Origin: Acidobacteriota bacterium
GTDB taxonomy: Bacteria; Acidobacteriota; Terriglobia; Acidiferrales; UBA7541
NCBI GenBank assembly: GCA_021788095.1
Contig: JAJYLB010000015.1
Span: 1 to 64,000, forward strand
Direction: 5' to 3'
DNA length: 64,000 bases
Positions 21,318-28,514 of the stretch are shown one piece after another (positions within the stretch are counted from its first letter, which is position 1; the number at the start of each line of letters is the position of its first letter). Under the pieces are notes generated by a model. That model made no database searches. It was given only the letters and a program-made list of their open reading frames with translations, and was not told the DNA's origin. The translations under genes and the position numbers were made by a program.

Positions 21318-22454
21318 TTGCGCCGGCGGCCGGTACCGCGTGCCGGCGTCGAGCCGAACCGCATGCGGGATGCCATTGTCTATGGACGCGACTGGACCCG
21401 GGGAGCCGGTGCGCTGGGGCGGCTCGCGGTTGCTATAGCGCGCGCCGGGGGGAAGGTGCTGCACGGCTCCGCCGCAATTTCCGTGCTTGCAAGGCCGGAC
21501 GGGCTGCTCCGCAAGATCGAGCCGAACCTCTTCACCTTTCATCCCTGGGTCTACTCCCACCGCCTGAATCGGCTTCCCGGGATGCCCCGGTTCCAAGCCG
21601 AGGCGCTAGCGCGCCAGCTACTCGTACAGGCGCGGGCGCTTGGGCTCGAGAACCCCTTTTTTGTCTACGAGTACCTGGGACGGTTACTCGTTCCGCTCGG
21701 CGAGGCGATGAGGCGGCAAGGCTGCCGTTTGGTCTTCGCTCCGATGAACTATACGGAGAGTCTCGGCGACTCCCACGTCGAGCAGTCAGATTTGACTTTG
21801 GTCTTTTCCCGTACCCTTTACTACAGGATGCGTGCGCGCTGGGCTGAAAGGGTACGCTACGGCTTCCTCGGGATCGACCTCCTGCCGTTTCGTGGGCTCT
21901 GCCCTTCCCCTGAGAACCCGCCCGCAGCGCTTGCGGCAATCCCGCGTCCGCGCCTGGGCTACGCTGGTGCCTACGGTGATGAGTTCCTGAACACGCGCGT
22001 TCTGGGCGAACTCCTGCGCCGGCAGCCCTGGTGGAATTTCGCGTCCTTTGAGGCGCCACGCGTATCCGCTGCGGCGTCCAAGCGCGCCGTGCCGCTTCCG
22101 AACGCACACTTGCTTCCTTGGCAGGATCCGAAAGGGTTTGCGCGCTGCGTCGCCAGCTTCGATGTAGGCTTCATGCCCTACGACTGCTCGAGCGTCGTCC
22201 TGCTCAATAATCCTCCTTTGAAACTTTGGGATTACTTCGCCTTGGGACTGCCCGTCGTCGCCACTCCCCTCATCCATCTTTGGCCCTATGACGGCTTGGT
22301 CCGTTTCGGTGAGACCGCCAAAGAGCTGGAACGGGCGGTGGAAGAGGCGCTGGCCGAGCCGCTCGACAGCCCCCTGCGCCAACAGCGCAGAGCAGAAGCG
22401 GAAAAGCACTCGATCGAGGCGATGGGCCGGCTGCTGGAGCAGATACTCGGGTAG
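21318..22454 (+). CDS. Glycosyltransferase (GT1/GT4-like fold)
   Basis: C-terminal PPLKLWDYFALGLPVVATPL donor-binding-like motif; DVGFMPYD; start may be internal (21363). Confidence 0.7.
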   Translation: MRRRPVPRAGVEPNRMRDAIVYGRDWTRGAGALGRLAVAIARAGGKVLHGSAAISVLARPDGLLRKIEPNLFTFHPWVYSHRLNRLPGMPRFQAEALARQLLVQARALGLENPFFVYEYLGRLLVPLGEAMRRQGCRLVFAPMNYTESLGDSHVEQSDLTLVFSRTLYYRMRARWAERVRYGFLGIDLLPFRGLCPSPENPPAALAAIPRPRLGYAGAYGDEFLNTRVLGELLRRQPWWNFASFEAPRVSAAASKRAVPLPNAHLLPWQDPKGFARCVASFDVGFMPYDCSSVVLLNNPPLKLWDYFALGLPVVATPLIHLWPYDGLVRFGETAKELERAVEEALAEPLDSPLRQQRRAEAEKHSIEAMGRLLEQILG

Positions 22455-23405: not shown

Positions 23406-24557
23406 TCACTTTTTGAGTAGGCGGAACGGGCGCAGGAGGGCGTAGGCGAAGTTGAGCCCGGCCGGCAGGCGAAGGGCGTTCCAATCGTCGGCGGCGGGCG
23501 TAGTCGCCAAGCGCGCTGCGTAGCGGATGCCCGGCAGAAGCCCCGGCACCATGCCCATGCGATACCGAGCTTGGTGCAGGCGTGAGAGCGGCTGCGGAAC
23601 GAAGAGTCGCCCAGCCAACCAATCCGCCTGGGAAACCGCCCGAGCGTCGGCCCGGGCGGCGGCGAGGACTCCGCCGGGAATCGCGGCATCGAGTAGCGTG
23701 CTCGCGAGAAGCAACGCCACGTTGACCATCCGCCGGCAGCGCACGTGGTCTGCCCGTTCGAGCGCCGCCGGCCAATCACAGCCAGGATCCCGCGCCAACC
23801 AGGCAACGTCACAAACCCAGAGCAGCTTGGACCAGTAATCCTTCGCCCCGTGCACCGCGAGGAGGATCAGCGTATCCTCGCGGCAAAACGTCGCCACGGG
23901 CTGCCCGGCTACTTCTACTGGCTTGAGCCTGGACAGGAAGGGACCGAGATTTGGGAGGGCGGGGAAGTGGCGAAGCGTTCGCTCCGTGTGCAATTCCAGC
24001 CGAGCATCGTTTTCCGCGGAGAGAAACGCGTATTCGCCGGGAATGAGGGCTGAGGAAACAGCCAGCGCGGGAGATTCCGGTCGGTATCCCAAGCCCTCGA
24101 TCAGTTTCCACGCCGCCACCAACTCCGCGTGCGGAAGAATGAAATCGAGATCGGCAAACTCGCGCAAAGCCAGATTCCCATAAGCCATTTCGCCCAGTAC
24201 GGGGCCCTTGTACGGGACCAGGGAGATCCCCGCGCCGGCGCAGGCACCGTTGATTTCGAGCAGCTTCGCGGCGAGTTGCATATTGCGCGCCGCTGCCGCC
24301 ACTGCCGCGGCGCGAAGGGCTGCCAGGGAATCTGCCGGCACCGCGGCATCGGCGAGCGCCGGGAGTTGGGCGTAGCAGAGCGGGGCAACGCCGTGGACTC
24401 GAGCGGTTTCGATCACCAGCGGCCAAGCGAGGGTCTCTTGGAGAAGAATTCGGATTTCAGCGCGTCGTGCAGCCGAGAAAGGCCCGCCGGCAGAGGCCGC
24501 GACGAGACCATATTCGGGCCGAAGCGGGCATCTGCGAGAGGAAGCGTTACCGGTCAT
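23406..24557 (-). CDS. NTP_transf_5-like (uncharacterised nucleotidyltransferase family) protein of the RiPP cluster
   Basis: VPYKGPVLGEMAYGNLALREFADLDFILP, the nucleotidyltransferase-like motif typical of lasso-associated NTP_transf_5 proteins. Confidence 0.75.
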   Translation of the reverse strand: MTGNASSRRCPLRPEYGLVAASAGGPFSAARRAEIRILLQETLAWPLVIETARVHGVAPLCYAQLPALADAAVPADSLAALRAAAVAAAARNMQLAAKLLEINGACAGAGISLVPYKGPVLGEMAYGNLALREFADLDFILPHAELVAAWKLIEGLGYRPESPALAVSSALIPGEYAFLSAENDARLELHTERTLRHFPALPNLGPFLSRLKPVEVAGQPVATFCREDTLILLAVHGAKDYWSKLLWVCDVAWLARDPGCDWPAALERADHVRCRRMVNVALLLASTLLDAAIPGGVLAAARADARAVSQADWLAGRLFVPQPLSRLHQARYRMGMVPGLLPGIRYAARLATTPAADDWNALRLPAGLNFAYALLRPFRLLKK

Positions 24558-24612: not shown

Positions 24613-25641
24613 CTACCCGACGAGAGACGCGGCCTCGCCCCTGCGGAGGTCCTCCACGATGAGCGCGCACATGGCGCCCATCCGGCCGGGATCGGTCGAC
24701 GGCACCAACTCCTGGATGCGAACCGTGCGGGCGATCTGGCCCAAAATCGGGAACTCGCGCGCCGTCTGTTCCATGTCGAGCGCCAAAGTCATGAAGCCGT
24801 TGTACATCAGCCGCACGAGGCGATCGGCGCCGCGAACGGGTTCGAGCCGCGGCGCTAGGCTATCCGAGGTGCGCGGAGCGAGCAGATAGATCGCTTCGAG
24901 CGGCACGGGCTCGGTTTGAAACCTGCCGGGCGCGCCGTCTAGCCGCACGAGCCGCTTCTCCTCCGTCGGAAGAAAGAGGGGGAGGCTGTCCGCGGCGCCT
25001 GGCCCATAGAGGAACCCGAGCGAGTCCGGCAGCAGGCACACTCGCGGCACGCCGGGGACCACCACGATCTGGCCGTCCGGCTCGCCCGACTCGGGCTCGC
25101 GCCGGATGGCGGAAACGTCGTCGGAAAGCAGGGGGAAGCCGCGCTGGGCGAAGGCCGCGGCCGTGCTGGATTTTCCCATGCCTGGATCCCCGGCGAAGAG
25201 CACCGCGCGACCATCCACGGCCACGGCGCTGGCATGCAGGCACACGTGCCCGCGCAGGTGCAGCGCGAAGGTGAGCATCTTGCTCAGGAAGAACGCGGTG
25301 ATGACGTCAAGGCCAAGCGTGCCGGGCCACTCGATCCAGACGTTTCGGCCCTCGGCGTCCACCGCCCAGGAGAAACCTTCGATGTAGCGGAAGTAGTAAA
25401 TTCCCGTTCGCCCGCAGCGCCACATCCGCGACCAAGGCTCGCCGGCCGCATCCCGCAGCGGGCTTTCGTAGGAGGGTCCGAGCTTCTGCAGTTCCTCGGC
25501 GTTGAGCTTCGGTGGAAGGAACCCGCCGTGTAGCCAAAGGTCCGGCTCGGCCTCCTGCGATGCCGCGCTCAGGCCGGCCAGCGGGAAATTCGAGCCGACG
25601 ACCAGACCCTGCAATTGGTAGGCGCGCAAGAAACGCTCCAC
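24613..25641 (-). CDS. HPr-kinase/phosphorylase-like protein of the RiPP cluster
   Basis: Walker A FAGDPGMGKSSTAAAFAQRGFPLLSDDVSAIR preceded by HASAVAVDGRAVL, as in HprK-like kinases of lasso clusters. Confidence 0.82.
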   Translation of the reverse strand: MERFLRAYQLQGLVVGSNFPLAGLSAASQEAEPDLWLHGGFLPPKLNAEELQKLGPSYESPLRDAAGEPWSRMWRCGRTGIYYFRYIEGFSWAVDAEGRNVWIEWPGTLGLDVITAFFLSKMLTFALHLRGHVCLHASAVAVDGRAVLFAGDPGMGKSSTAAAFAQRGFPLLSDDVSAIRREPESGEPDGQIVVVPGVPRVCLLPDSLGFLYGPGAADSLPLFLPTEEKRLVRLDGAPGRFQTEPVPLEAIYLLAPRTSDSLAPRLEPVRGADRLVRLMYNGFMTLALDMEQTAREFPILGQIARTVRIQELVPSTDPGRMGAMCALIVEDLRRGEAASLVG

Positions 25642-25656: not shown

Positions 25657-25812
25657 CTAATGCTTGGCGCCCGTGACGTGGCAGCCCAGGCCGCTCGGGC
25701 AGCTCTCCGCGTTGTCCTGCGCAGCGCCGCTCGACGTCAGCGTCAGCTCGCGCAGAGTTCCGTAGACGCGAAGCTCGGGAGGTGAATAAGGCACTTTAAG
25801 GGGTTTGGACAC
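25657..25812 (-). CDS. Lasso-type RiPP precursor peptide (51 aa; GTG start; not in ORF track)
   Basis: (M)SKPLKVPYSPPELRVYGTLRELTLTSSGAAQDNAESCPSGLGCHVTGAKH: leader matches YxxPxLxxxGxxxxxT; AAGGAGG 6 nt upstream of GTG; overlaps the 3' end of the cyclase gene; followed 15 nt later by the kinase gene. Confidence 0.85.
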   Translation of the reverse strand: MSKPLKVPYSPPELRVYGTLRELTLTSSGAAQDNAESCPSGLGCHVTGAKH

Positions 25813-27667
25813 GACACTCCTCCTTCCGAAAGTTATACGCGAATTGGGATTCCCATTTCAACCAATAATTCAGGTGAAAAGGCAGAAGAAGTACGGGCAG
25901 CTCCCCCGGAGCTGGGTTCTTCACCTGCTCGACGGCCCTGGCGACGTTCACGAACCGGCCCAGCTCCTCGGCCGGCTCGAACCCATCCAGCCATCCTGTG
26001 GGCGTGCTCTCGTAAAGTGCCCAGAGAAAATCGCGCTCGAGCGGACGTTTCCTCGCCAGGCGGATCTCGTCAGGAAGAAAGCCACGCATCGCGCGCCGCA
26101 ACAGTTCCTTGTCAGAGCACCAGGGCATCGCCGGCAAGCTCAGAGCGTAACGCATGAGCCGCAAGTCAAACAAGGGATGCCGCGGCTCGACCGTGACGCC
26201 GGAGCCGTTCGGGTCGTAGCCCTCGAACAGGGAGACCCATTGAAACCGGGAAAGCAGGTCGTAGGCCTCGGGCCGCACGGCTCCATTCGGTATCTCCTCG
26301 TTACCCCTGACTTCGTGTCGCTCGTACGTCTCCCTTAGATTGAGCCGGCGCTCGAGATCCGGATTCAGCCAATCGGGGAAGGGCCACGGCGGCGGGCTGT
26401 CGCGGAGGCGAGCTTTGACGTGTTCGAGAATCCGAAGCCGCCGCATGCGCCCCTCGCAAAGCAGGTGCCCGGCGACTTCCTTGGCGAGCAGCAGCCACTG
26501 TCCTTCCCGGATTCGCGCGCGACACTGGCGCAACCGGAAGCTGGAAAAGATCGGGTCTCCGCCTTGCCCGGTCAGAAAGACCCGGGCTGGGAGCGGCTGG
26601 CCCAACTCATCGGCGATCGTCCAACCCAGCATCGGGCTTTGCTCGGGCTGCGGCCGGCGGAACGCGGGTTTATCGGCGAGTCCGAACAACTGATTGCGGT
26701 CGAGCGGGAATTCGCGCCAGGAAATCCCCAGGTAACGGGCAACGCAGCGGGCGAGCGCGCCCTCATCGTGGGGGAACAGGCGCTCGTAGCTTTTGGTGTG
26801 CGCGGAAATCTTGCAGCCACTCCTGTCACCCACGCGCTTGGCCATCGCGGCCACCGAACTGGAGTCCATGCCCCCGCTCATCAGCACGGCAACGCAGTCC
26901 GTCCGCAAGCGATCGCCAACCGCCTGCTCGAAAAGCTCGAGGAACCGCTCGACGTAATCCCGGGAGTGGCGGAAAACGGTAGGCGAATCCTCCGGCAGCG
27001 TCCAATAGCGCCGCGTGCGCACTTCGCCCCGGGCCACGACGAGGACGTGGGCTGGCGGCAGACGCCAAATCGCCGCCCGCGCTGTCCGCGCCAAATCGGT
27101 ATTTCGCCCCAACACCAGAAACTCGCCAATCGCCCGCTCGTAAAGATCGTCGGGAACGTCGGGATGAAGGCGCGGGACATCCATCGAGTTGCTGAAGAGG
27201 AACGCGCGGTCAACGTGCGCGTAGAAAAACGGCTTCACGCCGAAGTGGTCGCGGGCGCAGAAGAGCTTTCGTTCGCGCGCGTCCCAAATCGCAAAGACGA
27301 AATCGCCGAGCAGATGCTCGACGCACGCCTCGCCCCAGACGGCGTAGGCGTGGAGAATCAACTCGGCGTCGGGGAGCGCGAGGGAGGCGTCTCTGCCGCG
27401 AGCGGCCAATTCGCGAATCAGGTCTTCGCGGCCGTCGATGCGGGCGTCGGCCGCGATCCGGACCTGGCCGTCGATGCTCATCGGCTGGCGCTCGCCGCGC
27501 GACTCCTGCGAGGTCGCAAACAGCGTGTGCACCAGCCCAACGTTTCCTTCCGCCCAGGTTCCGTGCGCGTCGGGCCCGCGCTCGCCGAGGAATTTCTCGA
27601 ACCGGGCGAGCAGGTCGCGATCGACGGGCGCGCCATCGAGATTCACGATGCCGGCAATGCCGCTCAT
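25796..27667 (-). CDS. Asparagine-synthase-like lasso cyclase (C protein)
   Basis: MSGIAGIVNLDG... start; PP-loop VLMSGGMDSSSVAAMAK; Ser in place of the glutaminase Cys2; ATGA overlap with B2. Confidence 0.88.
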   Translation of the reverse strand: MSGIAGIVNLDGAPVDRDLLARFEKFLGERGPDAHGTWAEGNVGLVHTLFATSQESRGERQPMSIDGQVRIAADARIDGREDLIRELAARGRDASLALPDAELILHAYAVWGEACVEHLLGDFVFAIWDARERKLFCARDHFGVKPFFYAHVDRAFLFSNSMDVPRLHPDVPDDLYERAIGEFLVLGRNTDLARTARAAIWRLPPAHVLVVARGEVRTRRYWTLPEDSPTVFRHSRDYVERFLELFEQAVGDRLRTDCVAVLMSGGMDSSSVAAMAKRVGDRSGCKISAHTKSYERLFPHDEGALARCVARYLGISWREFPLDRNQLFGLADKPAFRRPQPEQSPMLGWTIADELGQPLPARVFLTGQGGDPIFSSFRLRQCRARIREGQWLLLAKEVAGHLLCEGRMRRLRILEHVKARLRDSPPPWPFPDWLNPDLERRLNLRETYERHEVRGNEEIPNGAVRPEAYDLLSRFQWVSLFEGYDPNGSGVTVEPRHPLFDLRLMRYALSLPAMPWCSDKELLRRAMRGFLPDEIRLARKRPLERDFLWALYESTPTGWLDGFEPAEELGRFVNVARAVEQVKNPAPGELPVLLLPFHLNYWLKWESQFAYNFRKEECRVQTP

Positions 27668-28233
27668 GGGTGGTTGCCTCGTGTCGCCAGGGTGGCCGGT
27701 GCTGCAGCGGTCGTAGGGGCGAGGCACGCGTCGCCCCTACGGAGACTGAAGTCCCGACCGAAGGGCACGTAGGGCAAGCCTTCCTCGTGGCCATCGGGAA
27801 GCGCGACTCCATCGACCTCGACCCAGGCATGCGCCTCGAGCTTTCCGTCGCGCTTACGCACGCCGATTTTGAGTTGCGAGGCCACGCCGCGCCGGTCGAG
27901 CAGGAAGCAAAGCACGATGGCTTGCGCCAGACACGCGCCGCCGGCGTAGCGCGCAGCCACGGCCACTAGTCGCGCCATGCGCCGCGCGGAAGCTCGAAGT
28001 CCCGCAGCCTGCGCCGGCGCGGGTGACCCGCCCCATCCGAGTCGCGTCTGAAGTATTTCGTTGAGCGGCAACTCGCCGGGCTGCGCTCCGAGCCGCCGGC
28101 CCAGGAGCGCCAGCACGCGCTTGAGTCCGAGGGCCGCAAGAGCCAGACGCACCACGGGCAGGAGCAGCAGCGCCCCGATGACGGCGGCCTTCTCCTCGCG
28201 GTGAAGCCGCCAGAATTTGCGCCAGAGGCTCAT
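27664..28233 (-). CDS. Lasso peptide biosynthesis B2 protein (transglutaminase-like leader protease)
   Basis: Cys/His/Asp-type pattern GGACLAQAIVLCFLLDRRGVASQLKIGVRK...AHAWVEVDG; overlaps both neighbours by ATGA. Confidence 0.85.
   Translation of the reverse strand: MSLWRKFWRLHREEKAAVIGALLLLPVVRLALAALGLKRVLALLGRRLGAQPGELPLNEILQTRLGWGGSPAPAQAAGLRASARRMARLVAVAARYAGGACLAQAIVLCFLLDRRGVASQLKIGVRKRDGKLEAHAWVEVDGVALPDGHEEGLPYVPFGRDFSLRRGDACLAPTTAAAPATLATRGNHP
27713..27740. repeat. GTAGGGGC hairpin (family D) inside the 3' end of the B2 gene
   Basis: GTAGGGGCGAGGCACGCGTCGCCCCTAC; same core as hairpins at 35331, 45868, 59793. Confidence 0.7.
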
Positions 28234-28514
28234 TCTTCGGTTTGGACGAGTCCGTTCTCGACCAGCTTGGCGACGAGCGCTTCCAAATCCTTCCGCAGGC
28301 GTGCATCGTCGACTTCATAAACTCCAAGCAACTCCTGGTAAGCCCCCTCGAGCGTCCGGGATTTGCTCAGCGCCTCCCACATCCGCATGCCCACGGGATC
28401 GAGCCCGAAATAGAGCTCGTTCTCAAGGTTGAGCAGCACCGCTTCCTCGCCCACGCGCTGCAGCAAAACGTGCGCAGGCACCACCAGGCGGGCGCTGAAT
28501 GAGATCGCCAACAC
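28230..28514 (-). CDS. PqqD-family RiPP recognition element (lasso B1)
   Basis: AISFSARLVVPAHVLLQRVGEEAVLLNLENELYFGLDPVGMRMWEAL...LRKDLEALVAKLVENGLV; GGGAGG upstream; GTG/TTG start proposed. Confidence 0.82.
   Translation of the reverse strand: MLAISFSARLVVPAHVLLQRVGEEAVLLNLENELYFGLDPVGMRMWEALSKSRTLEGAYQELLGVYEVDDARLRKDLEALVAKLVENGLVQTEE

Follow-up and report, generated by a model that had tools for sequence, protein, structure and literature searches.

The short interval between a gene for an asparagine-synthetase-like protein and a kinase gene, on a contig from a soil bacterium of the Acidobacteriota, raises the question of whether it encodes the precursor of a lasso peptide and, if so, what modifications the mature product would carry. 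We have addressed this question in a window of 64,000 nucleotides (the whole stretch of DNA analyzed here), which belongs to a genome assembly of 4.2 Mb (111 contigs, 93.5% complete). The genes concerned form one minus-strand operon with the order B1-B2-C-A-K-N, and its features are the following:

28230..28514, minus strand: B1, RRE protein (PqqD-like); PF05402 5.1e-14; putative start at about 28511-28514
27664..28233, minus strand: B2, leader protease (Transglut_core3); PF13471 2.4e-20; NF033537 73.6 bits, cut-off 33
25796..27667, minus strand: C, lasso cyclase, asparagine-synthetase-like; NF033535 is its best family, below the cut-off of that model
25819..25825, minus strand: ribosome-binding site AAGGAGG, 6 nt ahead of the GTG start and still within the 3' end of the cyclase gene
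25657..25812, minus strand: A, lasso precursor gene, 51 aa, GTG start; NF033521 score and congener conservation
25738..25812, minus strand: leader peptide, 25 aa, Y9..P12.L14...G18.....T24-L25; motif unique in the window
25660..25737, minus strand: predicted 26-aa core, residues 26-51, TSSGAAQD-NAESCPSGLGCHVTGAKH; congener core alignment
24613..25641, minus strand: K, HprK-related kinase; H136, G151, K157, S158, D174 and D175 intact
23406..24557, minus strand: N, NTP_transf_5 protein, counterpart of PsmN/BsfN; PF14907 1.5e-52; same place in four congeners

A preliminary description made from the DNA letters had proposed gene A as a 51-aa lasso precursor, and its reading of the locus agrees with ours in every coordinate. 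The minus-strand translation of 25657-25812 is VSKPLKVPYSPPELRVYGTLRELTLTSSGAAQDNAESCPSGLGCHVTGAKH*, with cysteines at residues 38 and 44; the AAGGAGG lies 6 nt 5' of the GTG, the gene overlaps the cyclase ORF by 17 nt (25796-25812), and 15 nt separate its stop from the kinase GTG at 25641. The curated NCBI model of lasso leaders, NF033521, gives the precursor 21.7 bits (cut-off 19), and this cut-off is also passed by the precursors of all three congeners with two cysteines. A gene this short, with a GTG start, could be suspected of being a chance ORF between cyclase and kinase. Against this, the leader motif Y..P.[LIVM]...G.....T. matches once in the six frames of the window, while in random sequences of equal length, generated with a first-order Markov model, it occurs 0.08 times on average; it is absent from all 2000 randomized versions of the surrounding 500 nt. 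With the curated model and the family-wide conservation described below pointing in the same direction, we consider the probability of a chance ORF to be negligible.

For the conservation analysis we compared four congeners, the acidobacterial MAGs YP1.bin9, REEB266, YF1.bin127 and FK1.bin65. All of them keep the B1-B2-C-A-K-N order and have a homolog of gene A at the corresponding position, with the GTG start and the upstream AAGGAGG in three of the four. In the wider family, the 30 best loci, the window among them, include 29 that have a motif-bearing ORF, directly 3' of the cyclase in nearly all. A scan of named genomes yielded 65 loci where a kinase gene adjoins the precursor gene (C-A-K), mostly in Acidobacteriota and Cyanobacteria with some in other groups. 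Only three precursor-bearing loci had room for an adjacent kinase and none detected. In a KSB1 bacterium, three precursor-like ORFs follow one cyclase (L088, 8884, 9254 and 9649). The codons of the leader differ between the window and congener L055 by 13 synonymous and 5 non-synonymous changes, with a bias toward third positions; the core diversifies between window and congeners while the leader changes mainly synonymously. Two outcomes would have spoken against the preliminary proposal, namely that the region is conserved only as part of another frame, or that homologs have lost the YxxP/G/T motif. Neither was found: no other frame is open throughout gene A of the window (in the congeners, one antisense frame is), and the motif is retained. 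The gene, its frame, the operon and their conservation are plain observations. The leader model, the full B1-B2-C set in one operon and the conservation of leader, start and gene order all support the proposed function, and the product of gene A is very probably a lasso peptide precursor, an assignment as firm as sequence allows.

Among solved structures, the nearest to B1 is TbiB1 (5v1u, 1.7e-8). The ATG of the cyclase gene overlaps the B2 stop (ATGA), and its product is above the cut-offs for PF00733 and GATase_7; its best NCBIfam match is the lasso cyclase model NF033535, with 337 bits for a cut-off of 525, and a PDB search with the cyclase profile returned asparagine synthetases and a hydroxyamidotransferase only. 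The kinase reaches 31.5 bits with PF07475 (cut-off 33.3). Since both score below their family cut-offs, cyclase and kinase are to be regarded as divergent. The catalytic motifs are intact. The kinase motif H..GxxGxGKS..DD is present beside gene A, with H136, G151, G156, K157, S158 and D175 invariant and G154 and D174 nearly so. These residues align with H148...D187 of BsfK (numbering from PMC10368454) at a constant offset of 12 (alignment 5e-11), and the predicted fold (pLDDT 93.9) has HPr kinases as its best PDB matches. A second lasso cluster was sought genome-wide and a single B2 gene was found; Rfam and tRNA scans of the 64-kb window gave no matches.

We derive every chemical step of the pathway from homology. 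B1 would bind the leader through its YxxPxL...G motif, and K would phosphorylate the linear core on a hydroxyl residue. B2 would cut after Thr24-Leu25, and the cyclase would activate Asp8 with ATP and couple it to the Thr1 amino group; the resulting ring of 8 residues would be threaded by the remaining 18 residues of the core. Cys13 and Cys19 may then pair in a disulfide that closes a small loop within the tail (class IV type), and N may add a sugar to the phosphate. The monoisotopic neutral masses calculated for these species are 2484.076 Da (linear core), 2466.065 Da (lasso), 2464.050 Da (lasso with the disulfide), 2544.016 Da (phosphate in addition) and 2706.069 Da (one further hexose).

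The position of the cut was left between two registers in the preliminary description, and of these only one withstands the comparison with the congeners. Cleavage after T24-L25 gives the core TSSGAAQDNAESCPSGLGCHVTGAKH with a predicted Thr1-Asp8 ring. In this register the cores of the genus start with TSSGAAQD (window), TGSGNALD, TASGGGID, TASSGTCD and TSGKGSYD, so that Asp8 is present in five out of five, inside the span of core positions 7-9 where lasso peptides have Asp or Glu. Cleavage after T26-S27, which would produce a Glu9 ring, also leaves a penultimate Thr; however, the Glu is not conserved in the congeners and it is Thr24, not Thr26, that holds the position of the model family-wide, making this register highly improbable. 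In the set of 65 loci, most cores have their first acidic residue at position 9 (39 loci) or 10 (17 loci, e.g., L064 8889 and L082 8899), and at 11 in three more. The ring size cited for lasso peptides is 7-9 residues, and the cores with the acidic residue at 10-11 would have either larger rings or a cleavage one residue later.

Both cysteines of the predicted core, Cys13 and Cys19, fall in the tail, after the ring. Such a pair is a peculiarity of this lineage, as 62 of the 65 kinase-linked precursors are Cys-free and the other three are the window congeners; two cysteines appear only in the window and these three. In the cyclase tree the four two-Cys genomes form one clade (100/100) and the Cys-free congener stays outside. 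The number of cysteines is kept and their positions are not (13/19 in the window, then 9/22, 13/25 and 7/16). In the published classification a tail-tail disulfide is class IV and a ring-tail disulfide class III; the first three pairs would be class IV and 7/16 class III. A disulfide in the product is plausible, and it may not form because the positions are not conserved. The known class IV lasso peptides (LP2006, pandonodin, felipeptins) likewise carry a pair of cysteines in the tail, beyond the ring. They differ in that no kinase is described in their clusters, and from them the window peptide is set apart by a disulfide that is only putative and by sister genomes that place the cysteines differently, in one case as a ring-tail pair. 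A two-Cys precursor-like ORF (AGTQSCSNDNSLICGGG...) was also seen outside this clade, at position 2125 of the proteobacterial contig L120, which ends soon after.

The preliminary description placed the kinase gene correctly, drew no consequence from it and overlooked N. The presence of both genes in the operon implies an extra modification of the core: by analogy the product is probably phosphorylated (on Thr22, or on Ser3 as in BsfA) and, since the reviewed role of PsmN is to add hexoses to the phosphate, perhaps glycosylated. The closest known system is the bsf cluster of Bradymonas sediminis (BsfA, BsfK, BsfN), which also has separate B1 and B2, C, an HprK-like kinase with identical motif spacing and a nucleotidyltransferase. 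Unlike bsf, the window has Thr instead of Ile at leader position -2, Thr1 instead of Gly1, two tail cysteines and no adjoining D gene, and its kinase is about 34% identical, over just 128 residues. The clusters of pseudomycoidin (PsmK, PsmN) and paeninodin (PadeK) also bear a kinase, and that of pseudomycoidin a nucleotidyltransferase, the protein represented in the window by the PF14907 match of N. The kinases of these two act on a C-terminal Ser, whereas His is the last residue of the window core (...HVTGAKH), and Thr22 is the fifth counted from the C terminus. Of 61 kinase-bearing relatives, 29 have a PRMT/PrmA-like methyltransferase gene 3' of the kinase (among them L060 10178-11326 and L076 10009-11223); this gene is absent from the window genus.

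The candidate acceptors in the predicted core are Thr22 (in HVT) and Ser3, and published lasso kinases use either the C-terminal Ser (paeninodin, pseudomycoidin) or core Ser3 (BsfA), residue 3 being the only one that BsfK phosphorylates (PMC10368454). An acceptor in the C-terminal region is favored because all 62 distinct cores have Ser or Thr within their last six residues (shuffles: mean 50, maximum 59), because [KR][ST] occurs in 49 of the 62 where 16 are expected, and because several cyanobacterial cores end in Ser. The motif H-[VS]-[TS] near the C terminus is common to the congeners. The case for Ser3 comes from BsfA, whose ring GTSGNEVD shares the pattern S3-G4-xxx-D8 with TSSGAAQD, and from the presence of Ser3 in the window and three of the four congeners. 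However, of the 62 distinct cores that come with the same kinase, only 17 have Ser or Thr as residue 3, a share close to the 22% averaged over the ring; congener L058 has Gly3 and keeps its kinase; and the link between Ser3 and Asp8 rings (5/7 vs. 13/56, p 0.017) is owed mainly to one genus. We therefore prefer Thr22, with roughly even chances on the present comparison, and treat Ser3 as a serious but less probable target.

The window precursor is a member of the known kinase-bearing lasso peptides, and acidobacterial lasso clusters have been reported already. The soil fosmids 40.1, 44.1 and 482.1 (PMC9064862) carry acidobacterial B1, B2 and C genes, followed in 44.1 and 482.1 by a short A gene; unlike in the window, an HprK-type kinase, N and a Cys pair are not described for them, and 482.1 lists a different kinase. 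New here are the window member itself, a Cys pair specific to one clade and a hint, drawn from the family as a whole, on the kinase site. It is possible, though less likely than not, that a lasso peptide combining a disulfide with a phosphate (possibly bearing a sugar) on a Thr near, not at, the C terminus has arisen in one acidobacterial clade; we found no description of this combination, or of a near-C-terminal Thr acceptor, in the open-licence PMC articles consulted. For expression work, the precursor offers a well-defined target in an acidobacterial lineage that is uncultured. Most of the kinase-linked family fits neither published site (C-terminal Ser, ring Ser3) cleanly, and with at least 65 such precursors the question of the target residue of lasso kinases becomes directly testable.

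No transporter adjoins the operon within the 64-kb window. In the congeners an ABC-2 ATPase and permease pair lies upstream, divergent from B1 (detailed in two, L035 4286-6138 and L037 10471-12278), and in the window a Tad pilus gene (29048) occupies this place. A close copy of this pair was sought in the 93.5% complete genome and none was found, the best match having 45% identity. The cluster could accordingly be in decay, with the precursor still open and no product made since its exporter is missing. This is very unlikely given that none of the six reading frames is interrupted, that the catalytic motifs are intact, that the leader changes are biased to synonymous ones and that the related mmv cluster likewise has no D gene (PMC10368454). 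The flanks of the operon include Tad/TadE-type pilus genes and, convergent to N at 21318-22454 on the plus strand, a gene for a protein with no Pfam match and a glycosyltransferase-like look, a homolog of which occupies the corresponding position in two congeners at least.
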